Shown here piece after piece: positions 2,292-33,595 of a stretch of 51,221 nt of DNA. Source of the stretch: Terriglobia bacterium (lineage in GTDB: Bacteria; Acidobacteriota; Terriglobia; Bryobacterales; Bryobacteraceae). The position numbers and the translations under genes are program-made. Each line of letters starts with the position of its first letter. Position 1 is the first letter of the stretch. The stretch is taken from assembly GCA_025350105.1 (NCBI GenBank), contig JANXYJ010000194.1, positions 1 to 51,221 on the forward strand, written 5' to 3'. The notes below the pieces were generated by a model, which was not told the DNA's origin, did not search any database, and was given only the letters and a program-made list of their open reading frames with translations.

Positions 2292-3809
2292 ATGACTTTC
2301 TCACGTAAACGACTTGCCCGCCGGCCGCAGTTTGGTGAATCGGCGTCAAACAGGCGCGGCTTCGTCATCCTGGTCTATACGCTTTCGGTCGCGCTGATCA
2401 TTTTGGTTTTGGGCTTGGCTGTCGATGCCGGTGTGTTGTATCTCATCAAGAACCGCTTGCAAGCCGCTTCCGATGCCGGCGCTCTTGCCGCAGCGCGCAG
2501 CTTGAATCTCAGCCTCAACCCTGCCCAGCAGGACTCCGACGCGCAAACCGCAGCCACCAACTTCTTTCACGCAAACTTTCCAGACTCGGTCTTCATTACC
2601 CAGAACAGCACCATCAACACCACGCTGGTTTACGGCACCGGTTCGTCTGTCAATACGCTTTTCCTCACCACCACGGCTACCACCAACGCGCCTACGTATT
2701 TCATGAAGTGGCTGGGCTACGCCAGCGTTCCTCTGCGCACCAGCGGAACTGCTTCTCGCCGCGATCTCAACCTCATCCTGGTGCTGGATCAATCCGGATC
2801 CATGAATAACGGCACCACGCCTTCCGCCTGCGATCAAATGAAAACGGCCGTCGCCAACTTCGTGGACATGTTCGCCAACAACCGCGATACAGTGGGGATG
2901 GTCACCTTCAATTCCGCCGCGCAGGTGCAGTTTGCGCCGGTCGGTAACTTCAATCCCAGTATCAAAACGCAAATCAGTGCAATTACCTGTGGCGGCCGCA
3001 CTGGCACTGCGAACGCCCTGCACTTGGGCTACCAGCAACTGACTAATCTCAATAATCCAACCAAAGTGAACGTCATCGTTTTGTTTACTGATGGCTTGGC
3101 GAATACCATCCAGAACGCTTTTCCAGTAAAAACCGTTTCGGACACTCGTTGGGATGTCGCAAATCCCAACAATCTGGTGCCAGTCGGCCCCAGTGGCTGC
3201 GCCGGCATGACAACCCCTCTCGGTTCTCTGCAGGGAGAAGGCGCGGTCAACGGCGCAACGAATGGTTTGTGGGTATATAACGATCAAACCGAACCCATCG
3301 TCCCCGCGGGCGGATGTTCCTTTGGATCCAATTCCGCGAATGTTCGCCAGGACGTCGCCTACATCCCCACCACCGATTACTGGAACAACCTGACCACCGG
3401 CCGCCGTACTGATTTCAACACCGCGACTGGCACCTACAATGCTGGTCAGGACACCTTTCCGTCGGGAAACTATATTGGGAAACTCCGTCCCGACCAACCG
3501 CAAACCATCGCCAACGCGGCCTTTAATGCGGTCGATTCTCAAGGGAGCACCATTCGCAACAACACCACCTACAACCCCATCATCCTCACCATCGGGCTCG
3601 GCGGCAATAGCACTACCCCAGTCGACGCCGAAATGCTCATCCGCCTGGCCAACGTCCCGGGCGGCGTCGACCCCTTGAACAATCCCATTACCAACACGAT
3701 TTTTGACGCCACCAAACCACAGGGCGTTTACGTCTACTCGCCAACTTCCGCGGACTTGCTCAACGCTTTTTCCAAAGTCGCGTCGTTCCTTGTTGAATTG
3801 AGCAAGTAA
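2292..3809 (+). CDS. TadG-like protein with von Willebrand factor A domain
   Basis: A 505-residue protein. The N-terminus has a putative Flp pilus-assembly TadE/G helix (GFVILVYTLSVALIILVLGL, about residues 23-42), followed by the typical DAGALAAA segment. A vWA domain starts near residue 160 with a complete MIDAS motif DQSGS (Asp166) and an LFTDG strand later. TadG-type proteins are membrane-anchored, with the vWA domain on the periplasmic side, where it may bind partners through a metal ion. It is the last gene of the TadE-TadE-TadG series. Its final codons lie in a 19-bp tandem repeat that carries the stop codon. A long open frame on the opposite strand is a shadow. Confidence 0.85.
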   Translation: MTFSRKRLARRPQFGESASNRRGFVILVYTLSVALIILVLGLAVDAGVLYLIKNRLQAASDAGALAAARSLNLSLNPAQQDSDAQTAATNFFHANFPDSVFITQNSTINTTLVYGTGSSVNTLFLTTTATTNAPTYFMKWLGYASVPLRTSGTASRRDLNLILVLDQSGSMNNGTTPSACDQMKTAVANFVDMFANNRDTVGMVTFNSAAQVQFAPVGNFNPSIKTQISAITCGGRTGTANALHLGYQQLTNLNNPTKVNVIVLFTDGLANTIQNAFPVKTVSDTRWDVANPNNLVPVGPSGCAGMTTPLGSLQGEGAVNGATNGLWVYNDQTEPIVPAGGCSFGSNSANVRQDVAYIPTTDYWNNLTTGRRTDFNTATGTYNAGQDTFPSGNYIGKLRPDQPQTIANAAFNAVDSQGSTIRNNTTYNPIILTIGLGGNSTTPVDAEMLIRLANVPGGVDPLNNPITNTIFDATKPQGVYVYSPTSADLLNAFSKVASFLVELSK

Positions 3810-3848
3810 GGTTGAGTTGAGCAAGTAAGGTTGAATTGAGCAAGCAGG
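3793..3848. repeat. 19-bp tandem repeat, three copies, spanning a stop codon
   Basis: The unit TTGAATTGAGCAAGTAAGG occupies 3793-3811. It repeats with one substitution at 3812-3830 and decays at 3831-3848. The first copy includes the last codons and TAA of the TadG-like gene, so the repeat duplicated the 3' end of the reading frame together with its stop. Confidence 0.9.
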
Positions 3849-3870
3849 AGGCGGACCTGAAACCGCCTCC
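3847..3870. terminator. Hairpin between convergent genes
   Basis: A perfect 8-bp inverted repeat, GGAGGCGG and CCGCCTCC, is separated by 8 nt. It lies between the plus-strand TadG-like gene and the minus-strand secreted-protein operon. Neither side has a good T-run, so it may work as a two-way stem-only terminator. Confidence 0.55.
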
Positions 3871-3888
3871 CTCCTACCGAAAAAACAG

Positions 3889-6800
3889 CTACCGCACTGT
3901 CACCATCTGCACCGGCCCGCCCACCCAATTGCCCAGCGCGTCCTGCCGCTCCGCTACGTAATACAACACCCGGCCCGCAATCGCCGGAATCGTGATCTTG
4001 CATCCTGTGGTGCAAACTTGCACCGTTTGTGTTTCGTCCGCCCACACAAACGGCAAGCTCCCGTTGGTGCTGGTTGTGCACGCCACCTGCCTTGGCGTAC
4101 AGAACAGGTTTTGCGGCGGCCCATTTTCGGAGTAGCCGAAACGTGCCCGCGCATTTGGATAACCACTGGCCGCTGCCAGCGTTATCGGCACCGGTACAAA
4201 ATCCCCCCGGTTGGTTGACTCCACGTCCGGGTACGGTGGCAGCTTTAACAGCATCAAATCGTTGCGCGCTTTCCCCAGTCCCGTCGTCAACCAGAACACC
4301 CACTTCGCATCCGGCGTCGCCCGCACATTCCAGAACGTACTCTCGGTTTTATAAGGACTGAATGCGCTGGTAAGGCGCCGTGACAACGCCCCGTTGTTGT
4401 CGTCGAAAATGACCGAAGTTTGAATCACGCGGTGGGCGGAGTCCCCGTTCGTCGTCACGCAAATATCACTGATCCCCGGCGTGCTGGAAAATCGTGACGT
4501 CGTACACGACGGCTGGGCCGCGTATTTCACGTTCACGTATACCTCGCCCTGCAAACTGCCCGCGTGGCAGTCCCCCGGCTTAATCACATAGCACCCCTTG
4601 TAGTTGTCCGCCGCAGTATCGGTTAAGACCGCTGGGCTCGCGTCCACCAAGGCTGAAGATCCGGAGGTCATGAGTAAAGGCCGCAGCCTCGGCTGCAGCA
4701 AAGTGGTAGCGGCCGCGCTCAACCTGTAAAGATAAGTGCTGCCCGGTACAGCCTGCATGGCTGACGGCGTCGCAATTGTCACGTCACCCAGATAGGGCCG
4801 GGCGTCGAAAGACGTCATCTTATCCAGCGCCGGAGCATTATATTGGGAACGGCTGGGATGGGACTCCAGCAAATTGTCGCTCATGCGATATTGGTCCACG
4901 CTAAATCCGGCATCGGTATTGGAAGCCACCGTCGGGCTGTGGAAAGAGTCGAAGGGTTTGCCTGCCGTCGGCAGATCCCCTACTCGCATCGCAATACCCG
5001 GCTTCTGGTTGGCTTTCAAACAGCCCGCCAGAAAAATTCCCGTCTGGTAAACCTGGTGGCAATCGATGGTGGCCGGATCCTCCAACATGGTTTTGCCATA
5101 CGCCTTGGTTAGCGTTTGCCCCAACGGATCGTCGGCAAAATTCCACCACATTTCCTCGCTGGCTCCCGGCACAACTTGCAGCGCCAGAGTTTGTCCGGCA
5201 TGATTGTTGTTCAACCCGTACACGTAGGTTCTCACCGCACGCTGCAATGTGATTACCGAACCGTTCACCGCCAGCGCACGCACTTGCTCTCCTGCGCCAT
5301 ACCAATTCGCGCCGGAAAGGGCCATCACCTGAAAGTAATCCCCCGGCAATAACGTTTGGCCATATAATGTGGAGCCATCCACCGGCGAAGTTGGCAACAA
5401 ACTGCTCACCGTCACCGTCGAGCACATCGTCTGGCCCGTTACGGTGGGGTCAATCGCATTGGGCGGACACACCGAATACGTTGGGGTCAGCGTTCCCGAA
5501 CTGATGGGCACTTGGAACGGAAGGTCGCCCGCTCCGCCGATGCTTACTAAAATCCAATCGGTGGCTCCCGTCGTGAAGATGGAATGTGCAACGCCCCACC
5601 GGTTGGGCGCACCCGCCGATCCATTGTAGGTGGACCCCGCGGCGACAATCTGACTGGTTTGCGTATTGAATACGGCCATCCACGTCGGTGTATTTTGCGT
5701 CGATTGCGCACACTGCAACGCCATGTTGGGGCCCGCCTGTCCTACCAACTGCCACCCGTACTGGCATTGGAACACCTGATAGGCGGGATTGAATGCCGTC
5801 ACCAGTGACGTGATGTTGCTGGCTACCTGTGTAACCGTTACCGGCGTCAGCCCCCCGTCGATCGGAATCGTCGTTGGACTGTTGTTGCCGGTATAATCCA
5901 CCCGGGAAATCGCATTGGACATCAGGCACCAGAAGCGCCCGGGCACTTGCGGATCCCAGGCCCACGAGCCACCAGAAAAGCACAACTGATTGTTCGCAGA
6001 ACCAGTGCCGATCAGGTTCGCCGTTCCATCCGCTCCCACCCAGTACATCGGAAATGCACTCAAATACTGCGCTACCAGACTCGATCCCACGCATTGATTT
6101 CCAGGACCGGTCGGTCCCGTCGTGGTGGTGGGCGCGCACAAATCGAAACTGCCCGTGGCGCCCATCGAGACATAGCCGCTGGTGCTTAAGGTCCAGCTAG
6201 CACCGCCAATTGTGATCGTATCGGTGGAGGCGCTCGCCTTGCCGATCAGAATGCCCCAGTTCCTCCCCTGATAGTTGTGCGCCCCTGCCGTTACACAAAA
6301 CGGCGTCGCCAGCGTCATTGTGTTTTCGTTGGTGACTGACGCTACCGTGCAATCGGTCCCGTCCAACGTCACCCTGCTGCCCGCGGCCAGTTTTAGACTG
6401 AATAGATCTCCGCCCTGCCGCGCCACCGTCAACCCATCGGCGCCCAGGGTAATCGAACTGATCTGTACTCGTAAGTCTTCGCGCACACTGGCCACCTCGC
6501 CAGACGCCGCCGGTAACGCGCCTTTCCAAAACTCGAGCACCGGTACCGCATTCCCAATCGTATAGTTTGCGCTGGTCTGCGTCAGCACCTGTTGCACTAT
6601 TTTGCTGGCGCAGGTCACGCCATTGTTGGTCAGGCAAACGTTAATCGTACGGTCCGCCGCACTTGCCGCGCTCCCCGATGCCCCAGTCAATTGAATTTGC
6701 ACCGAATCCGGCGACTTCAGGCCTGGCCATGCCGGATCGCTTGCGCGATAATACACCAAGGCCTGGCTGCTGGACGCCGAATAAGTCGCCTGCAGGCCGC

Positions 6801-25363: not shown

Positions 25364-27619
25364 ATGTCGTCATCGAAAGACCAGAACCAATCAGGCGTGA
25401 ATCGCCGCGAGTTTGCCCGTGAATTGAGTGGCATTGCCGCCGCCGGCGCGGCGCTGACTGCCTTGGCCACCAAGCCTGCCGCCGGCCAGAGCGGCTATTC
25501 GGCGTTCGCCGGTTCCAACGAAAAGATTCCGCTTGATCTAGCCGAGTACAGCTATTTTTGGGTTGGTGTGGAGCGTGCGGAGTTGGCCCGCGGCACCGTA
25601 GTGAGCGGCAAGCAAATGTATGTGGAATACGCCGTGCCCACGCAGTTACGGCATCCCTATCCAATTGTGTTGGTGCACGGTGGCGGTGGACAAGGTTTGG
25701 ATTGGATGGGCACGCCGGACGGGCGTCCCGGTTGGTTCTCGCACTTGTTGGCGGAAGGGTACGCGGTTTATGTGGTTGATCGGCCGGGGCATGGGCGCTC
25801 GCCGTATCATCCGGAAGTGATGGGCGGATGGCCTGCTCGCCACTTGTCGCTGGAGGCCATGTCCGGCCGCTTCACGCCGCCGAACGCGGGCACGCCCATC
25901 GCAGCCCAGCAAGCCGCCAGCGAATATCAGAAAAAATATCACAACCAGTGGCCGGGCACGGGCCTGGTTGGCTCGCCGGATTTGGCTCAACTGGTTTCTT
26001 CGCAAGGCGGAGCGTATGTGCAGGCGGGCCTGCAGAGTGCGGCGGTAGCGCATCAGGTCTGGCGTGAACGCGGAGCCATGCTATTGGACAAAATTGGCCC
26101 GGCCATCATCATGACCCATTCTGCGGGCGGGCCGTTCGGCTGGCTGGTGGCGGAAATCCGTCCAAAATTGGTGAAAGGCATTGTGGCCATTGAAGGCGGC
26201 GGCCAACCATTTGCAGGCGCGAATGTTTGGGGCATGTCCACGGTGCCGGTGGAGTTCGACCCTCCGGTGAAAGATCCGTCGGAGATCAAGCTGGTGACGG
26301 TGAATTCGCCGGAACCCGGCGTACAGCCGTACAAGCTGCAGGTTGAGCCCGCGCGCAAGTTGAAAAATCTGCAAGGCATCCCGATTGTGATTGTGACCGC
26401 CGAAGGGTCGTTTGCATCACCGGGGAATCCGGGCGGCGTGGCGATGCTGAAGCAAGCCGGATGCATGGCGGAAGAGTTACGGCTGGTGAACAAGAACATT
26501 CACGGCAACGGACACATGATGATGGTGGAGAAGAACAACAAACAGGTTCTCTCCGCGATTCTTGATTGGGTGAGGGTGAAAGTGGAGAAGGGCATGGCGG
26601 TAAGCCAACAGCCGCGCCAGACGGAAACCGCGATGAAGCTGGCCGACCGCGGTTACTTCTGGGTGGGCACCGAACATAAGAAAGTCGATTACGGCACCCT
26701 GATCGCCGGACAAATGTATGTGCAGTATTTTACGCCGGAAAACGTCCGCCATCAAACGCCGATTGTGTTGGTGCATGGCGGCGGCGGATCGATGCTGCAC
26801 TACATGGGCGTGGATCAAAAAGCCGGCTGGATGCACTATTACCTGAACGAAGGCTACCAGGTGTATTTGGTGGATCGGCCGGGTCACGGGCGTGTGCCTT
26901 ATCATCCGGATTCGTTAGGCGCCATGACGCCGATGGTGACTTATCAAACGGTGGACTTTGATTTTCAGCGCGCAGTGAAGGGTTCTCCGCGACGGTGGGA
27001 AGGCACGGGGAAGGTGGGCGATCCTTGGCTGGATCAGTTTCAAGCGGGCCAGCAAGCACTGCCCGTCGATAGTGTGATGGCGCATGGATTGTGGGCTCGC
27101 GATGGAGCTGAACTTCTCGACAAGATCGGGCCCGCCATCATTCAAGTGCATTCGGCGGGTGGACCGTTCGGTGTTCTCGTCGCCAATCAACGGCCCAATT
27201 TAGTGAAGGCTGTGGTGAACGTGGAAGGCGCGGGCAATCCGTTTTCTGAACAGACGCCATGGGGCATCACTACAGTTCCCTTAACGATGGACCCGCCGGT
27301 GAGCGATCCCAAAGAGTTTGCACTGCGCGAAGTGAAGCCTGCCAGCGGTCCATCGTATAAACTGCAGGCCGATGGCAACGTGCGGAAGTTCAAAAATCTG
27401 CAAGGCGTGCCCATGGTGTTTGTGACGGCGGAAAATTCCAATCGCCTGCAGGGAACGGGGCAAGTGGCCATGCTTCGGCAGGGCGGCGTGGAGATTGACG
27501 ATTTGCAATTGAAGAGCAAAGGTATCAATGGGAATGGGCACTTCATGATGTTGGAGACCAATCGCAAAGAGGTTTTTGGGGTGATCAAGGGGTGGTTGGA
27601 GGAGAAGGTGAAGGGGTGA
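25364..27619 (+). CDS. Exported two-domain esterase-713-like alpha/beta-hydrolase
   Basis: A 751-residue protein. ATG 25,364 has GGGAGGA 9 nt upstream and opens a Tat-type signal: NRREFA with Arg14-Arg15, then an Ala-rich hydrophobic stretch to about 42. Two homologous hydrolase domains follow. Domain 1 has VLVHGGGGQGLDWMGTPDGR, VDRPGHGRSPY, nucleophile Ser253 (THSAGG), Glu277 (AIEGGG) and His384 (GNGH). Domain 2 has VLVHGGGGSMLHYMG, VDRPGHGRVPY, Ser597, Glu621 and His726. The HGGGG oxyanion loop and Glu 24 residues after Ser fit the esterase-713 group, where the acid is Glu. Both domains look active. Export and the substrate are inferred; an ester or lactone is likely. Confidence 0.85.
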   Translation: MSSSKDQNQSGVNRREFARELSGIAAAGAALTALATKPAAGQSGYSAFAGSNEKIPLDLAEYSYFWVGVERAELARGTVVSGKQMYVEYAVPTQLRHPYPIVLVHGGGGQGLDWMGTPDGRPGWFSHLLAEGYAVYVVDRPGHGRSPYHPEVMGGWPARHLSLEAMSGRFTPPNAGTPIAAQQAASEYQKKYHNQWPGTGLVGSPDLAQLVSSQGGAYVQAGLQSAAVAHQVWRERGAMLLDKIGPAIIMTHSAGGPFGWLVAEIRPKLVKGIVAIEGGGQPFAGANVWGMSTVPVEFDPPVKDPSEIKLVTVNSPEPGVQPYKLQVEPARKLKNLQGIPIVIVTAEGSFASPGNPGGVAMLKQAGCMAEELRLVNKNIHGNGHMMMVEKNNKQVLSAILDWVRVKVEKGMAVSQQPRQTETAMKLADRGYFWVGTEHKKVDYGTLIAGQMYVQYFTPENVRHQTPIVLVHGGGGSMLHYMGVDQKAGWMHYYLNEGYQVYLVDRPGHGRVPYHPDSLGAMTPMVTYQTVDFDFQRAVKGSPRRWEGTGKVGDPWLDQFQAGQQALPVDSVMAHGLWARDGAELLDKIGPAIIQVHSAGGPFGVLVANQRPNLVKAVVNVEGAGNPFSEQTPWGITTVPLTMDPPVSDPKEFALREVKPASGPSYKLQADGNVRKFKNLQGVPMVFVTAENSNRLQGTGQVAMLRQGGVEIDDLQLKSKGINGNGHFMMLETNRKEVFGVIKGWLEEKVKG

Positions 27620-27649
27620 TGTCTTCCGCGATCTAATATCATCTGTGAT

Positions 27650-28075
27650 GTGAGGCTGATCCTCGACGCCGATGTCGTCGTTGCCGCTATGCGCAGTCCG
27701 GGTGGGGCTTCGGCGGCGATTCTCGGCGAGGTTCGTGCGGGTCGAATCGTGTTGGCGCTCACGGTTGCCCTGGCGCTGGAATACGAAGCAGTTTGCCTGA
27801 GGCCCGAACATCGGTTAGCGGCGGGTCTTAGCCGTGCCGAAGCGGATGTGTTTGTGGATGCGGTTCTGGCGAGGGTGGAGCCAGTGGAAACGCATTATCG
27901 TTGGCGCCCTCAATTGAACGATCCAGTGGATGAAATGGTATTGGAGGCGGCCATAAACGGCGAAGTGGATGCTTTCGTGACTTTCAATACGAAAGACTAT
28001 GGCGACGCGCCCCTGCGATTTGGAATTGAAATCTTGCTTCCACGTGAAGCAAGCAGGAGGATTCGGACCCAGTGA
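27650..28075 (+). CDS. PIN-domain toxin of a toxin-antitoxin pair
   Basis: A 141-residue PIN-family protein of the COG1569 type, a likely metal-dependent ribonuclease. It starts at GTG 27,650. The acidic centre is visible: LILDADVVVA (Asp6, Asp8, where most relatives have DTNV), LEYEAV (Glu44/Glu46) and NDPVDEMVLEAA (Asp91, Asp94), followed by VTFNTKDY. It comes before its antitoxin, overlapping it by 4 bp (GTGA). It sits 30 bp after one double-hydrolase gene, and the pair interrupts two paralogous hydrolase genes. Confidence 0.85.
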   Translation: MRLILDADVVVAAMRSPGGASAAILGEVRAGRIVLALTVALALEYEAVCLRPEHRLAAGLSRAEADVFVDAVLARVEPVETHYRWRPQLNDPVDEMVLEAAINGEVDAFVTFNTKDYGDAPLRFGIEILLPREASRRIRTQ

Positions 28076-28326
28076 CAAAAACCTATCCCTTACGTTTGCC
28101 GCAATCGTTGAAGGATGCAGTTGAGCGTTTGAGTCAACAAGATGGCACCAGCATGAATCAGTTTATGGCGATGGCTGTGGCGGAGAAAGTATCCGCCATG
28201 GAGACCGTTCAATTTTTTGAAAACCGCAAGGCGCGGGCGGATTTCAAGGCGTTTGACAAGATCATGAAGCGGCACGTCTCCGGTAAGAAACGCGGTGAAG
28301 TGCCGCGCGCGGGCGACGAACTGTAG
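28072..28326 (+). CDS. Ribbon-helix-helix antitoxin
   Basis: An 84-residue protein starting at GTG 28,072. The N-terminus KTYPLRLPQSLKDAVERLS followed by GTSMNQFMAMAVAEKV is a typical Arc/HicB-like ribbon-helix-helix DNA-binding fold: one beta strand and two helices. The C-terminal half (FFENRKARADFKAFDKIMKR) is basic and helical and probably binds the toxin. It overlaps the PIN gene by 4 bp and would repress the pair. The next hydrolase gene begins 20 bp downstream, so regulation by this antitoxin could reach that gene. Confidence 0.82.
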   Translation: MTKTYPLRLPQSLKDAVERLSQQDGTSMNQFMAMAVAEKVSAMETVQFFENRKARADFKAFDKIMKRHVSGKKRGEVPRAGDEL

Positions 28327-28346
28327 CCGAAACGGGAGTGATTCAG

Positions 28347-30335
28347 ATGGAATCGAACAAACCAATCAACCTGGCTGCCTGGAGCTACTTCTGGCTCGGC
28401 GTGGAACGTGAAGTTTTGGCGCGCGGCACGGTGACCAGCGGCCGCCAGATGTACGTTGAATATTGGACGCCGGCACAGGTGCGGCACCCGTATCCGATCG
28501 TGATGATTCACGGGGGTGGAGGGCAGGGCACGGACTGGATGGGCCGGCCGGATGGAGGTCTTTCTGATAACAAGCGGGGTTGGGCCATGTACTTTATCGA
28601 AGAGGGCTATCGCGTCTACGTCGTCGATCGGCCAGGGCATGGGCGTTCGCCGTTTCATCCGGACGTACATGGTCCGTTCCCGCAAGGCGCCACAACTTAT
28701 ACACAAGTAGCCCGGCAATTCACGGCTCCCGAAAAAGCAGAAAAGCCGTATGGGCCGCAGGCGGCCAAACACACGCAGTGGCCAGGTACCGGAGTGGAGG
28801 GCGATCCCACCGTCGATCAGGTGATTCCCGGACAGGGTGGGTCTTTTTTAGCGGACCTGGAAGCCACGCACAATGTGTGGAAACAGAGATTGGGCGAATT
28901 GTTTGATCGTATTGGTCCGGCCTTCATCATGACGCATTCGATGGGTGGACCCAATGCCTGGATCGCGGGAGAAGTCCGCCCGGATTTGGTGAAAGGGATG
29001 ATTGGCATTGAGCCAGCGGGGCCGCCGTTTGGCAATCTTAAATATGGATTGACGGCATGCAAGATGACCTTCGATCCTCCAGTCAATGATGCGTCGGAAT
29101 TGAAGACCGTGAAAGTGACGCAGCCGGAGAGTAGCGGCCTGGATCCGTATCTTATTCAAGCGGAACCGGCGCGTAAGCTAAAAAATCTGGCGAATATTCC
29201 GGCCGTGGTGGTGACCTCGGAGGCTTCGTATCACGCACCCTATGATGCAGGCAGCGTAGCATTCTTGCGGCAGGCCGGCGTAAAGGTGGATCACATCAAG
29301 CTCGCGGACAGCGGGGCTTTTATTGCCAAACCCATACGGGGCAACGCGCATTTCATGATGATGGAGAAGAACAATCGCGAAGTGCTGCAGCCAGTGCTCG
29401 ATTGGATGCGGACGCGTGAGGGGAAAGCGCAAGCCGCCGCCCCAAAGTCCACCGAGACCGCGCTAAATCTGGCCGATTTGGGCCATTTTTGGGTAGGTGT
29501 GAACAAGAAAAAGATGCCCTATGGCACCATCGTCAGCGGGCAAATGTTCGTGCAGTATCTGATTCCGCAACAAGTGCGCCATCCCTATCCGATTGTGTTG
29601 GTGCATGGCGGTGGTGCGCAAATGTTGCACTACATGGGCCAGGGCGATTTGGGTGGTGAAAATGTGGAGGCCGGCTGGGCCCACTATTTCGTGCAAGCAG
29701 GCTATCGCGTGTATTTGATCGATCGCCCCGGCCATGGTCGCGCTCCGTATCATCCCGATGCGCTGGGGCCGATTGGCATGTTGCCAACCTACGAACAAAT
29801 TGCAGGAGATTTGTTGCGGACCTCCAATGGTCCTAACAAACGCTGGCAGGGCACGGGCGTGGTGGGAAAAGACGCACGGCTCGATCAACTGTTCGCTCAG
29901 CAGAATGCCGCGCCGCAGGATACAGCCATGGCGCATCGCATGTGGGCCGCCGGTGGCGCAGAGTTGTTGGATAAAATCGGTCCCGCGATCGTCCTGAGTC
30001 ATTCGGCAGCCGGGCCGTTTGGTTATTTGGTGGCCAATCAGCGCCCGAAGCTCGTAAAGGGAATCGTCGCGGTGGAAGGCGGTTTGCCCACACCGGGTTC
30101 GGTCCAGATGGACAACCTGAAGGGCATTCCCATAGCCATCGTAACCGCCGAAAATTCCGGCCGTAATTCCACGCCCAGCGTGACTACTTTGAAAGATGCC
30201 GGGTGCGATGTCGACGATGTGACGCTGAAGTCCAAGGGCATTTTGGGCAACGGCCACTTTATGATGCTGGAGAACAACCGCCAGCAGGTTTTTGACCTGA
30301 TTAGCGGCTGGTTGAACGATAAAGTGAAAGCCTAG
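28347..30335 (+). CDS. Two-domain esterase-713-like alpha/beta-hydrolase without signal peptide
   Basis: A 662-residue paralog of the exported double hydrolase. ATG 28,347 has GGGAG 8 nt upstream; the GTG at 28,338 overlaps this ribosome site and is less likely. It starts at once with NKPINLAAWSYFWLGVERE, so it lacks an export signal. Domain 1 has Ser198 (THSMGG), Glu222 (IEPAG) and His335 (GNAH). Domain 2 has Ser553 (SHSAAG), Glu577 and His637. The second domain is short: about 50 residues between Glu and the LKGIP strand present in all other copies are missing, reducing Glu-His spacing to 60. It ends 5 bp before the convergent cluster. Confidence 0.85.
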   Translation: MESNKPINLAAWSYFWLGVEREVLARGTVTSGRQMYVEYWTPAQVRHPYPIVMIHGGGGQGTDWMGRPDGGLSDNKRGWAMYFIEEGYRVYVVDRPGHGRSPFHPDVHGPFPQGATTYTQVARQFTAPEKAEKPYGPQAAKHTQWPGTGVEGDPTVDQVIPGQGGSFLADLEATHNVWKQRLGELFDRIGPAFIMTHSMGGPNAWIAGEVRPDLVKGMIGIEPAGPPFGNLKYGLTACKMTFDPPVNDASELKTVKVTQPESSGLDPYLIQAEPARKLKNLANIPAVVVTSEASYHAPYDAGSVAFLRQAGVKVDHIKLADSGAFIAKPIRGNAHFMMMEKNNREVLQPVLDWMRTREGKAQAAAPKSTETALNLADLGHFWVGVNKKKMPYGTIVSGQMFVQYLIPQQVRHPYPIVLVHGGGAQMLHYMGQGDLGGENVEAGWAHYFVQAGYRVYLIDRPGHGRAPYHPDALGPIGMLPTYEQIAGDLLRTSNGPNKRWQGTGVVGKDARLDQLFAQQNAAPQDTAMAHRMWAAGGAELLDKIGPAIVLSHSAAGPFGYLVANQRPKLVKGIVAVEGGLPTPGSVQMDNLKGIPIAIVTAENSGRNSTPSVTTLKDAGCDVDDVTLKSKGILGNGHFMMLENNRQQVFDLISGWLNDKVKA

Positions 30336-30340
30336 CGGGT

Positions 30341-31150
30341 TTAACGTGCGCTACACGGAGCCGGGCTGAATTTCGCTCCGTCTGCTTCCTTCTTAAAGTC
30401 GGTTGTGGTGACGAAGGGCGCGGCCAGATACACCGGGTCATTCACGATGGTGGTGACGGTGAGCCATTCATCACCATTGGGTTCGCCGAAGCGGTCGTAA
30501 TATTCAGTAAGCGTAGTTTTATCGCTGTAGGGCACGCCGTTTCTACGCAGGTAGCCCTCGCGAAGATTCGTCGTGACCGCTTCTAGCGACCGTGACTTCG
30601 CTCCGTAACGCGCCGAAACTCCCAGGGCCAATCCTCCCGCAGTAGGCGTTTGCGCCGGTTCCCAACGCGCAGCCGAAAAACCTTGCCATGAGGCCTGGGT
30701 GCCGGCAGGCGCGGTCAGCATCGTCGTTAGTCCGGGCGGTGAAAAATGAAACAGGCGTGTTTGCGTCCCTGCGTCAGTTTCAATTTTTAGCGTGCTCTCG
30801 TCCTGCCAGGTGATGCGCAGGCGTCCCGGCACTCGCATGATCGCGGCCGCGCCATAGGCTTTGCATTGTAGTCCGGCAGTCTCGTCTTTCGCCGGATCCC
30901 ATGCATCGATCACTTTGCGTGCCTCGGCTTTGTAGGGAATACTTGCGGCGTCACCCTTTAACGGCGTTACCATCCGCCAGCGATAATCCTCTGTCACCAC
31001 GGAAACCCAATTGCCCGTGAGGTCCACCGGTGCTGCGGCTTTCCCCGTGCGCGCAGGCGGCGGCGGGCCGGGAGCCCCGGGAAACTGTGCGCAAAGTGAA
31101 GTAGCCAGTCCGCAGGCCAATGCCAATGTCAAAAGCATTCGGTTCATCAT
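30341..31150 (-). CDS. Exported protein, paralog of the gene at 32,085-33,017
   Basis: A 269-residue protein with a signal peptide (about 1-21, ending SLCAQ) and a Pro/Gly-rich linker, then DLTGNWVSVVTEDYRWRM. The C-terminal half contains REGYLRRNGVPYSDKTTLTE and a later VNDPVYLAAPFV. These blocks are shared with the first exported gene of the cluster. The family is common in acidobacterial genomes, and no catalytic motif is visible. It begins 3 bp after the metallo-beta-lactamase-fold gene, so it is third in that transcript after the regulator. Confidence 0.8.
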   Translation of the reverse strand: MMNRMLLTLALACGLATSLCAQFPGAPGPPPPARTGKAAAPVDLTGNWVSVVTEDYRWRMVTPLKGDAASIPYKAEARKVIDAWDPAKDETAGLQCKAYGAAAIMRVPGRLRITWQDESTLKIETDAGTQTRLFHFSPPGLTTMLTAPAGTQASWQGFSAARWEPAQTPTAGGLALGVSARYGAKSRSLEAVTTNLREGYLRRNGVPYSDKTTLTEYYDRFGEPNGDEWLTVTTIVNDPVYLAAPFVTTTDFKKEADGAKFSPAPCSAR

Positions 31151-31153
31151 GTC

Positions 31154-32083
31154 CTATTTCCTCAGGCTCTTGTAGATGGCTTCGACGAACGCGTCCGCCT
31201 TCACGAAGCTATTGGCGGAAACGTATTCGGTGTCGTAGTCCAAGGTGGGCTTTGCGGCTTTCACTTGATCGAGCGTCTGACCTTTCTTGATCAGATCCTG
31301 TACGCGATCACGCACGATGACGATCATATCGCGGTATTCCACCACGTCTGCTTCGTCGCACAGCCGGCCGTGGCCGGGAATTACCAGAGTCCCGCCCTCT
31401 TGCGTGTGGCCGGGAACGGTGAGATCCAGAATATGATTCAGCGCCGCGATTTCACCTTGCACGCTGCCGCCGCGTTCGATGTCGATGAACGGGTAACCGC
31501 CCGGCGTGAAGATGTCGCCGGTGCTAATCACGTCAGAGCCGCGGAACAGAACGATGCTATCGCCATCGGTGTGCGCGTTGGGCTCGTGGTAAATAATAAT
31601 CGCTTCGTTGTTGAAGCGCAGGTCCTTGAACGGCGTGGAGAATTCGTCTTCGGGAAGGCCCGCGCCGGTAGCGGGAGTCTCTCCCGGCTTGGCCGGCTGC
31701 GTCATCCGGTTCAAAACATTTTCGTGAGCGATGATTTTCAACGGCTGGCCCCCGTCCTGCCTGCCCAATGCGTTGATATCCAGACTGGCCACCGCGTTCG
31801 CAAACGCATCATTGCCGCCTACATGATCCGGGTGGACGTGTGTATTGATGATCCAGTAAACGCCCGCGCGGGAAAGTTTTCGCACTTCACTCATCGCCTT
31901 CGGCGCCATGGCCGCTAGTCCGGTGTCTACCAGCAGATTTCCGTCCTTGCCGGTTTGCACCGTTATGTTGCCGCCGTCGCCGGCGATCACGTAGATATTT
32001 CCCTGAACCGGGATCACCCGCAGCTCCGCGGTCTGCGCCCCGGCGAAACGAGCCAAAACCAATACTGCCCAAAATGATTTCAT
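31154..32083 (-). CDS. Exported metallo-beta-lactamase-fold hydrolase
   Basis: A 309-residue protein with a short signal peptide (about 1-16). It has the MBL motif THVHPDH (His82, His84, Asp86, His87), then the third metal ligand region in PNAHTDGDS, Asp in ISTGDIF and the final His in VIPGHGR. These make a full two-metal site. Relatives hydrolyse lactones, thioesters or beta-lactams, so activity cannot be fixed. The gene lies between two related exported proteins with gaps of 1 and 3 bp. The three genes are therefore coexpressed downstream of a MarR regulator. Confidence 0.9.
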   Translation of the reverse strand: MKSFWAVLVLARFAGAQTAELRVIPVQGNIYVIAGDGGNITVQTGKDGNLLVDTGLAAMAPKAMSEVRKLSRAGVYWIINTHVHPDHVGGNDAFANAVASLDINALGRQDGGQPLKIIAHENVLNRMTQPAKPGETPATGAGLPEDEFSTPFKDLRFNNEAIIIYHEPNAHTDGDSIVLFRGSDVISTGDIFTPGGYPFIDIERGGSVQGEIAALNHILDLTVPGHTQEGGTLVIPGHGRLCDEADVVEYRDMIVIVRDRVQDLIKKGQTLDQVKAAKPTLDYDTEYVSANSFVKADAFVEAIYKSLRK

Positions 32084-32084
32084 G

Positions 32085-33017
32085 TTATCGGCCCTGTTCC
32101 CGGCGCTGCGTCGGACCCAGCAGGCACGCTATATTCGCACCCATGCCGCAATCGCAATAGCGGTCGCAGACCTGTTTGGGATGCTCGGGTTGAGGTATCT
32201 TCTTCTGATACTCCGGATACAGCGTCTCGGCACCGCCGCGGGTGATCTCATACGGCAAGCCATACCAGTCTGAGATTTCATGCAGGAATGCGTTGGTTCC
32301 GGGCAGATGATTTGGCACATAGTCAGCGCGAACTTTGGGCACTTCCTGTCCGTATTCGCAGATGTCGCGGCCCATGCGCTGGCCGGGATCCAGCACCCAG
32401 GTCTGGCTGCGCACCAGCGGCTCGGTCAAAAACGCAGGGTCGGTGATCACCGTAATCACGTTCAGATAATTTCCGTGGCGCACCCAATGTTCGGTGAACG
32501 TTGCTTTGTCGCTGCGCGGCAACCCATTGCGGCGCATGTAATTTTCTTTCAGATGCGTCGTATAGATATTCAACATGTTGTCCTGCCAGGTGCCCGTGGA
32601 AAATCCCTGCCAGGTGTGTTGCGCCAGCTCACCGGGATGCGGGCGGTCGTCCATCCAAATGGTGCGCTCCATTTCCTGAAAACCCATTCGCGTGTGCCAG
32701 GCAACCACCTGCTGCGTCACCGGATCGAGCACCGCGTCCACCCTCATGTTCGATAAACCGCGCATGGAGTAATCGCCCCCATGCGGCCGGCACTGATATT
32801 CCGGCACGATGGAGATGCGGTCCGCATCATAACTATCGGCACGCAAACGTGCCGCGGCATTGATGGGGAAGCCCATGTAATCGCCCAGTTCTGGACCTGG
32901 GATGCGCTCCGGCAGGTCTTCATGAAACAGAGGTGCCCAGGCGCCGGCAAAATCGGATTGCGCCAGCCCCGGCAAGCCAAACCCAAAAAGTGCCGCCACA
33001 AGAATTGCTTTTTTCAT
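32085..33017 (-). CDS. Exported protein, paralog of the gene at 30,341-31,150
   Basis: A 310-residue protein. ATG 33,015-33,017 is chosen because a signal peptide follows directly (KKAILVAALFGFGLPGLAQ). The mature part begins SDFAGAWAPLFHEDLPER. It shares WQGFS, KENYMRRNGLPRSDKATFTE and TDPAFLTEPLV with the other exported protein. The C-terminal end is Cys-rich (VCDRYCDCGMGANIACL), a possible metal or disulfide site absent from its partner. It lies one base before the MBL gene and 71 bp after marR, where operator-like repeats occur. Confidence 0.8.
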   Translation of the reverse strand: MKKAILVAALFGFGLPGLAQSDFAGAWAPLFHEDLPERIPGPELGDYMGFPINAAARLRADSYDADRISIVPEYQCRPHGGDYSMRGLSNMRVDAVLDPVTQQVVAWHTRMGFQEMERTIWMDDRPHPGELAQHTWQGFSTGTWQDNMLNIYTTHLKENYMRRNGLPRSDKATFTEHWVRHGNYLNVITVITDPAFLTEPLVRSQTWVLDPGQRMGRDICEYGQEVPKVRADYVPNHLPGTNAFLHEISDWYGLPYEITRGGAETLYPEYQKKIPQPEHPKQVCDRYCDCGMGANIACLLGPTQRREQGR

Positions 33018-33036
33018 AGTGAACCGTGTCCGTCTT

Positions 33037-33072
33037 AATCTATGTCGTAATCTATATCGTTTAGTTGTAAAC
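33037..33072. promoter_or_regulatory. Operator-like repeats between marR and its downstream genes
   Basis: A tandem 12-bp repeat (AATCTATGTCGT at 33037-33048, AATCTATATCGT at 33049-33060) runs into an inverted repeat GTTTA-GTTG-TAAAC (33059-33072). It lies just upstream of the exported-protein start and downstream of marR, a plausible MarR binding region. Binding is inference. Confidence 0.45.
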
Positions 33073-33088
33073 CAATTACCCTGGCAAG

Positions 33089-33595
33089 TCAACCGGCGCG
33101 GCGCTGCGCGGAAGGAGTGACCTTTGCCTCTGGCTTCAAAGCCCGCAGCCGTGTCAACATTGTTTCCAGCGACTGTGCTTGCCGGTCGTTTAGCGGCCGC
33201 ATCAATTGCTCGATCAATTGCATCTGACGCGGCAGGATGCGGTCGACGGCGCGTTGGCCTGCACGGGTCAGTTTCAATAGGTTCACGCGGCGGTCGTCAT
33301 CGGAGGGTTTGCGCTCCAGCAAGCCTCGCGCACTCAATTTGTCGACCAGCCCCACCACATTGCCTTTGGTCACCATCAGTTGATCGGCCAGGGCCTGTTG
33401 GCTCATGGGGCCGAACTTGGCAAGCGCCGCCAAAACATGAAAGCGGGCCAGCGTGAGCTTGTCAGGGCGCAAATCTCCAGAAACAATGGCCTCCATGTAG
33501 TTGTAGGCGCGCACCAATTGCAGCCAGGCCAGAAAACCTGGGCCCGGTAAATCCGGAAGAGGGCACGGTGTTTCGGTGCGGATGGGTTCGGCCAT
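33089..33595 (-). CDS. MarR-family transcriptional regulator
   Basis: A 168-residue winged-helix regulator. It contains LTLARFHVLAALAKFGPMSQQALADQLMVTKGNVVGLVDKLSARGLLERKPSDDDRRVNLLKLT as one continuous MarR core: the recognition helix includes TKGNVVGLVDKL and the wing includes DDDRR. The N- and C-terminal helices form the dimer interface. Such proteins respond to phenolic or other small ligands. It is the first gene of the minus-strand cluster and probably controls the exported proteins and the MBL gene, perhaps also the convergent hydrolases. Confidence 0.92.
   Translation of the reverse strand: MAEPIRTETPCPLPDLPGPGFLAWLQLVRAYNYMEAIVSGDLRPDKLTLARFHVLAALAKFGPMSQQALADQLMVTKGNVVGLVDKLSARGLLERKPSDDDRRVNLLKLTRAGQRAVDRILPRQMQLIEQLMRPLNDRQAQSLETMLTRLRALKPEAKVTPSAQRRAG

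Follow-up and report, generated by a model that had tools for sequence, protein, structure and literature searches.

Two esterase domains in each of two neighbouring genes

The window analysed here, 51,221 nucleotides of contig JANXYJ010000194.1 from a Terriglobia bacterium (assembly GCA_025350105.1), holds two neighbouring genes, A and B, which raise the question why a hydrolase chain should carry two active sites and how such a chain came to be present twice at one locus. A sequence-only reading had described them as paralogous genes with four domains like that of esterase 713, and both genes and all four halves are present as described (Table 1). With a profile built from the halves, two alpha/beta-hydrolase domains of the esterase-713/SulE type are found in each chain. 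In a phmmer search against the PDB, esterase 713 (1qlw) is matched by A at E 6.2e-24 and by B at E 2e-21, values which, with two domains per chain, exclude a chance match. Among solved structures, the closest in sequence are esterase 713, 4q34 and SulE. Judged by homology, A and B are members of the esterase 713/SulE group, and variants of it by architecture, with two domains per chain.

The HGGG(G/A), DRPGHGR and GNxH motifs are common to all four halves, and Ser, Glu and His are retained at homologous positions in each; the complete motifs and triads reported earlier are thus confirmed at the level of sequence. The nucleophile Ser lies outside a GxSxG motif, the residue at Ser-2 being Thr, Val, Thr and Ser in the four halves and never Gly. 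Glu follows Ser by 24 residues in A1, A2, B1 and B2, as well as in 118 of 118 domains of the relative set that retain both residues. The spacing is the same in esterase 713, as counting on an ungapped alignment bears out. Identity between halves is 53% for A1-B1, 59% for A2-B2, 50% for A1-A2, 51% for A1-B2, 44% for A2-B1 and 42% for B1-B2. About 40 residues after Glu, present in A1, A2 and B1, are absent from B2. Since loop 240-262 of SulE is reported to be absent from esterase 713 (PMC10356948), the shortening of B2 looks like a known variable loop. Compared with their nearest relatives, the halves of A and B show pN of 0.18-0.26 and pS of 0.66-0.73, the latter near saturation.

Table 1. Positions of the tandem esterase genes, their halves and neighbours in the window, and of the split gene pair at two other loci (last line, locus coordinates)
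Feature	Position	Strand	Remarks
Gene A, tandem esterase with twin-arginine motif	25364..27619	+	ATG start, 751 aa
Approximate twin-arginine (Tat) signal region of A	25364..25489	+	N-R14-R15-E-F motif
Half A1	25526..26593	+	residues ~55-410; S253, E277, H384
Half A2	26615..27616	+	residues ~418-751; S597, E621, H726
PIN_3-domain protein, candidate toxin	27650..28075	+	Pfam PIN_3, 61.8 bits (cut-off 27), E 1.3e-16
Candidate antitoxin-like small protein	28072..28326	+	GTG start; 4-base overlap with PIN gene
Gene B, tandem esterase without signal peptide	28347..30335	+	ATG 28347, alternative GTG 28338; 665 aa from GTG
Half B1	28359..29435	+	S201, E225, H338 (GTG numbering)
Half B2	29457..30332	+	S556, E580, H640 (GTG numbering); lacks ~40 residues after Glu
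Convergent neighbours of A and B, whole block	30341..33595	-	Pfam and family comparison
Two related proteins without Pfam family	30341-31150 and 32085-33092	-	no Pfam match at E 0.01
MBL-fold protein, between the two family-less proteins	31154-32083	-	domain match
MarR-type regulator	33089-33595	-	domain match
Split pair	L013 7403-9656; L021 4764-7023		adjacent separate genes, Tat motif in one only

Relatives and their distribution

A scan of genomes yielded 129 relatives; 80 of these were retained as 79 loci (L012-L090), and further relatives were added from more genomes; after removal of 10 duplicates the set comprised 106 proteins, a few of them cut by contig ends. Fifty-four have two domains and 52 have one, in line with the earlier statement that single-domain relatives exist, and the share of tandem forms in the set is inflated because the search queries were made from A/B-type proteins. 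Judged by record title or kinship, the tandems are mostly acidobacterial. Both triads are intact in 33 of the 54 (18 of type 1 and 15 of type 2, as defined by the tree below), the Ser is lost from both halves in 21, and no tandem combines one dead half with an intact one. A full triad is present in 51 of the 52 one-domain proteins, the remaining one being cut by a contig end.

The genome of A and B (G000; 4.7 Mb in 206 contigs) encodes two further tandem proteins: P0003 (L011), a type-2 protein of 766 aa with both triads intact, and P0004 (L010, 2912-5086), in which both Ser and both His are replaced. The RpoB of this genome, compared over a 187-aa piece, shares 93.6% identity with that of a Bryobacterales MAG. 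Overall, the group is patchy across genomes and not universal. With G000 counted in each, a match at E 1e-30 or better was found in 6 of 297 genomes of a phylum-wide draw and in 17 of 200 genomes of a family draw. In the phylum of a Bradyrhizobium, 3 of 398 genomes gave a match, each a single domain-sized one, in open frames of 359, 625 and 360 aa. In each genome of these surveys, scoring covered the top two to five candidates. Among plasmids, 21 records matched; each match is about 1 kb long among the 15 listed of the 21, and these are therefore single-domain.

Confinement of the tandem form to Acidobacteriota was considered and rejected. The search for two-domain forms outside this phylum, proposed in the earlier reading, gave two carriers, the genomes of L013 and L028, which are Pseudomonadota by RpoB. 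RpoB of the L013 genome shares 73% identity with that of a Pseudomonas and 53-56% with its counterparts in the Acidobacteriota of the set (L039 counted among them), and a 337-aa piece from the L028 genome is 79% identical to RpoB of the L013 genome, 70% to that of Pseudomonas and 53-59% to those of Acidobacteriota. As esterase and RpoB lie on different contigs in both genomes, a binning error may be involved. L021 comes from a second MAG with the L013 gene arrangement, and no RpoB match was obtained in its genome. The record of L039 is titled Acidimicrobiia; its RpoB is 90% identical to that of an Acidobacteria gp6 MAG, so that this title is doubtful. Among the papers listed in searches of open PMC, no title or abstract opening described tandem esterase-713-type proteins.

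Ancestry of the halves

To place the halves, a careful domain tree was constructed from 67 halves and single domains picked from the 122 rows of a quick tree, from which L053 d1 and L069 had been left out. In the careful tree, the type-1 N-halves and two split genes (described below) form one clade (100/98), and the type-1 C-halves and the other two split genes form another (100/98). Type 2, which includes P0003 and its relatives, is a separate clade (100/100), and single-domain proteins lie between both types. A single origin of all tandems is rejected: a tree constrained to unite all N-halves is worse by 196 log units (p-AU 3.8e-5), in a test that covered 67 of the 122 rows and whose groups were defined with the quick tree already in view. 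Judging from the careful tree, the chain appears to have doubled twice, separately in type 1 and type 2, and A, B and the group of tandems without Ser appear to descend from one type-1 doubling. In the domain tree the halves are orthologous, with one type-1 duplication, and the earlier claim that the double-headed form was itself duplicated stands. The branch of B2 is long (0.41). In the quick tree, a long-branched single-domain protein of Streptomyces (L070) groups next to the type-1 N-halves (support 88), and the N- and C-half of the type-2 protein L038 fall together (97); both proteins are outside the careful tree.

A conserved group of tandems without nucleophiles

In the 21 type-1 tandems without nucleophiles, referred to as the dead form, the Ser of the N-half is replaced by Gly in 17, Ala in 3 and Thr in 1. 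The Glu or the domain end is often lost from this half, and the His is kept in one case (L028). In the C-half, Ala takes the place of Ser in 21 of 21, Glu is found in 20 of 20 readable sequences, and Asn takes the place of His in 19 of 19 readable ones. For four dead copies (L105, L107, L109 and L117), dN/dS is 0.081-0.102, and for the active tandems of the same four genomes (L019, L018, L020 and L017) it is 0.056-0.074; in more distant pairs it reaches 0.27 in the dead and 0.26 in the active form, with dS near saturation. Where tested, the dead form is thus under purifying selection and does not look like a set of decaying genes. Mean pairwise identity of the C-half is 0.73 in the dead form versus 0.62 in the active form, and that of the N-half is 0.57 versus 0.62, both rough comparisons since group memberships differ. 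Twelve C-half sites are fixed differently in the two forms, including S597A and H726N (A numbering).

Strict co-occurrence of the active and dead type-1 forms was also considered and rejected, since the dead form is present in 11 of the 16 active carriers examined and missing from the genomes of L012, L013, L016, L021 and L023. In the family draw, with at most five candidates scored per genome, it is present in 7 of 7 active carriers, and 7 further genomes have the dead form alone; both forms are present in G088. At three loci a dienelactone-hydrolase-family protein accompanies a dead-type tandem: in L107 this protein (3037-3942) directly precedes the tandem, and in L105 and L109 a member of the same cluster lies within the locus but is not immediately next to it.

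The dead form could be a binding or regulatory partner protein. Taken further, a tentative scheme, to which we give appreciably less than even chances, would hold that two natural dimer fusions took place, that the sites of type 1 then specialised, and that a Tat-exported double-dead paralogue came to bind the same class of ligand as an extracytoplasmic partner of the active enzyme. Among the best 8 of 12 matches listed in a search of the pseudoenzyme literature in open PMC, nothing concerned this esterase group.

Export signals and the split gene pair

The N-terminus of A, examined by pattern and by inspection, has NRREF followed by an Ala-rich stretch, as expected of a Tat substrate, and the Tat motif is absent from B. 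Among type-1 proteins whose 5' end is complete, 36 of 37 have an RR-x-[FLM] motif ahead of the first domain: 16 of the 17 active ones, B being the sole exception, and all 20 dead ones (L023 and L099, which are cut, were excluded from this count). None of 15 type-2 proteins has the motif, L053 being cut and L036 having an RR outside the pattern. B starts approximately where its domain starts, directly downstream of the gene pair for the PIN_3 and antitoxin-like proteins that separates it from A, and from this position it may be guessed that the arrival of the pair removed the signal of B. The small protein of the pair resembles YlcI/YnfO_N (E 5.8e-5) and RelB (E 0.0043), both weak matches under the cut-off, and no second match to the PIN protein was found in its own genome at E 0.001.

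At two loci, L013 and L021, from MAGs titled proteobacterial, a tandem gene of the A type is followed by two single-domain type-1 genes. The order of this split pair is swapped relative to the tandem: the C-half type comes first (344 aa, no signal), and the N-half type, with a Tat motif, comes second. The split N-half type groups with B1 (99/98), and the split C-half type branches as sister to the active C-halves, apart from B2. For other proteins, a hitchhiker mechanism by which a signal-less partner is exported with a Tat-bearing one is reported as established (PMC10924467). The presence of one Tat motif in the split pair fits such co-export as a heterodimer. The simplest reading is that the split halves would form an exported heterodimer, of which the tandem chain would be the one-piece counterpart.

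Predicted structure and nearest known systems

An AlphaFold2 model of A (23-row alignment) has a pLDDT of 85.8 and a pTM of 0.88 over 751 residues. For a two-domain chain, such a pTM indicates a confident prediction of how the domains are placed relative to each other, confidence being what pTM measures. Each half is predicted to begin with hairpin strands (57-80 and 424-448). In a Foldseek search with this model, SulE, 4q34 and esterase 713 rank at the top (E ~1e-16, TMt 0.66-0.75), and with an rmsd of 4.7-7.2 A the alignment is not tight. The model of the dead-type protein L026 (pLDDT 78.7, pTM 0.84) is likewise a confident domain pair, for which esterase 713 ranks first. The hairpin of the N-half is about equally conserved in the dead and active forms (0.68 vs 0.69), compared with 0.57 vs 0.62 for the rest of the N-half, and the C-half hairpin is also conserved; as a test for crossed lids, this comparison is too weak to count either way.

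Esterase 713 of Alcaligenes (PDB codes: 1qlw, 2wkw) shares with A and B the fold, the Ser/Glu/His triad, the Ser-to-Glu spacing of 24 and GNxH, and its loop after Glu is short, as in B2. Unlike A and B, it has one domain and one site per chain, and its identity in Foldseek is 24-26%. SulE of Hansschlegelia zhihuaiae (PDB codes: 7y0l, 8gol and others) has the same fold and triad and an N-terminal hairpin, with the lid. In its account (PMC10356948), it is a homodimer of single-domain chains, in contrast to A and B, with the lid of one subunit lying over the active site of its partner and a Ser-to-Glu spacing of 23 (Ser209/Glu232); its loop 240-262 follows Glu, where A1, A2 and B1 likewise have a longer stretch. 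BDI_1566, a putative esterase (PDB code: 4q34), belongs to the same group by sequence and fold, and unlike A and B it has a single domain. Two alpha/beta-hydrolase esterase domains in one chain with a signal peptide are also described for DmCE1B (PMC8040265), in which the domains differ in activity. That protein differs in belonging to family CE1 and in having a carbohydrate-binding module between the domains (CE1-CBM48-CE1), its C-domain being described as minimally active on model substrates.

Neighbouring genes

Relatives of the two family-less proteins downstream of B are present at 10 of 35 type-1 loci (8 active, 2 dead), and those of the MBL-fold protein at 6 of 35 (5 active, 1 dead), the window being included in both counts; as many contigs are short, these are lower bounds. 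DUF6152 and membrane proteins weakly similar to DUF2214 and DUF6644 also turn up repeatedly, for the most part at L017-L020, which are closely related loci. These recurring neighbours suggest a pathway shared with the tandem esterases. No Rfam match was obtained in the window.

Two sites in one chain

Taken together, A and B are probably tandem carboxylic-ester hydrolases of the esterase-713/SulE group with both sites active; they would go back to a single type-1 fusion, later duplicated, and A would be exported by Tat and B cytoplasmic. A possible course of events can be described as follows. The tandem would have arisen once in the type-1 lineage and would later have been duplicated to give A and B; A would be exported in the folded state through Tat, and B, which has no signal, would act in the cytoplasm. 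The two sites of the tandem are perhaps simply those of the ancestral dimer. The earlier reading had left the choice between a substrate with two ester bonds and a pseudo-dimer, and it is the latter that is favoured, by the reported position of the SulE lid over the partner's site (PMC10356948), by the pTM of A and by the split pair. A covalent pseudo-dimer with two working sites, in which the halves would pack like the two subunits and the lids would be crossed, is therefore the most likely reading of A and B, and a two-ester substrate is not required for it.

Such a substrate was proposed to account for the two heads: each half would cut one ester of a diester or a short polyester, and the product would be passed between the sites. 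Both sites are indeed intact in 33 of the 54 tandems and none is half-dead, the N- and C-halves have been distinct since the duplication, so that their pockets may differ, and the differing activities reported for the two domains of DmCE1B (PMC8040265) offer a precedent. However, the pseudo-dimer accounts for two sites by itself, no identified neighbour gene points to a diester, and, as the split pair shows, a common chain is not needed to carry both halves; the two-ester substrate is rather unlikely, and its necessity is unsupported. The suspicion that two single-domain genes were fused by an assembly or annotation error, named in the earlier reading as what would overturn it, can be set aside as refuted, since 54 distinct tandems from many genomes (a few cut by contig ends) have frames open through both domains, with halves that are orthologous in the tree.

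It is improbable that one or both heads of A and B are non-hydrolytic in practice, with a binding or structural role as is presumably the case in the dead sister clade. The purifying selection on these 21 proteins, where tested, suggests that the fold is useful without this catalysis, but Ser, Glu and His are retained in both halves of 18 of 18 active type-1 proteins, from which hydrolysis would be expected in both. A further possibility, compatible with the pseudo-dimer and given a lesser though serious chance, is a division of labour by place, in which A would act outside the cytoplasm and B inside it, on the same or on successive esters. The Tat motif of A, the position of B as the one complete type-1 protein in 37 without it, and the PIN/antitoxin-like pair directly before its start are in keeping with this. 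On the other hand, B may be a shortened copy in the course of being lost, given the long branch of B2 and the residues missing from it, although esterase 713 is also reported to be without the corresponding SulE loop (PMC10356948) and the shortening need not be harmful.

Implications

The novelty of A and B most likely lies in their architecture and not in their chemistry; what was unexpected is the conserved double-dead group, together with a second fusion of separate origin. Single-domain relatives of a crossed-lid dimer, adjacent split genes, two separate fusions and a double-dead fusion make up a natural series, in which one can test directly what is gained by uniting two active sites and by sharing a lid between them. 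The series includes a conserved pseudoenzyme group, mainly from Acidobacteriota, that sequence annotation would call alpha/beta hydrolase. The tandem proteins also provide natural scaffolds for the engineering of SulE-like, ester-detoxifying enzymes.
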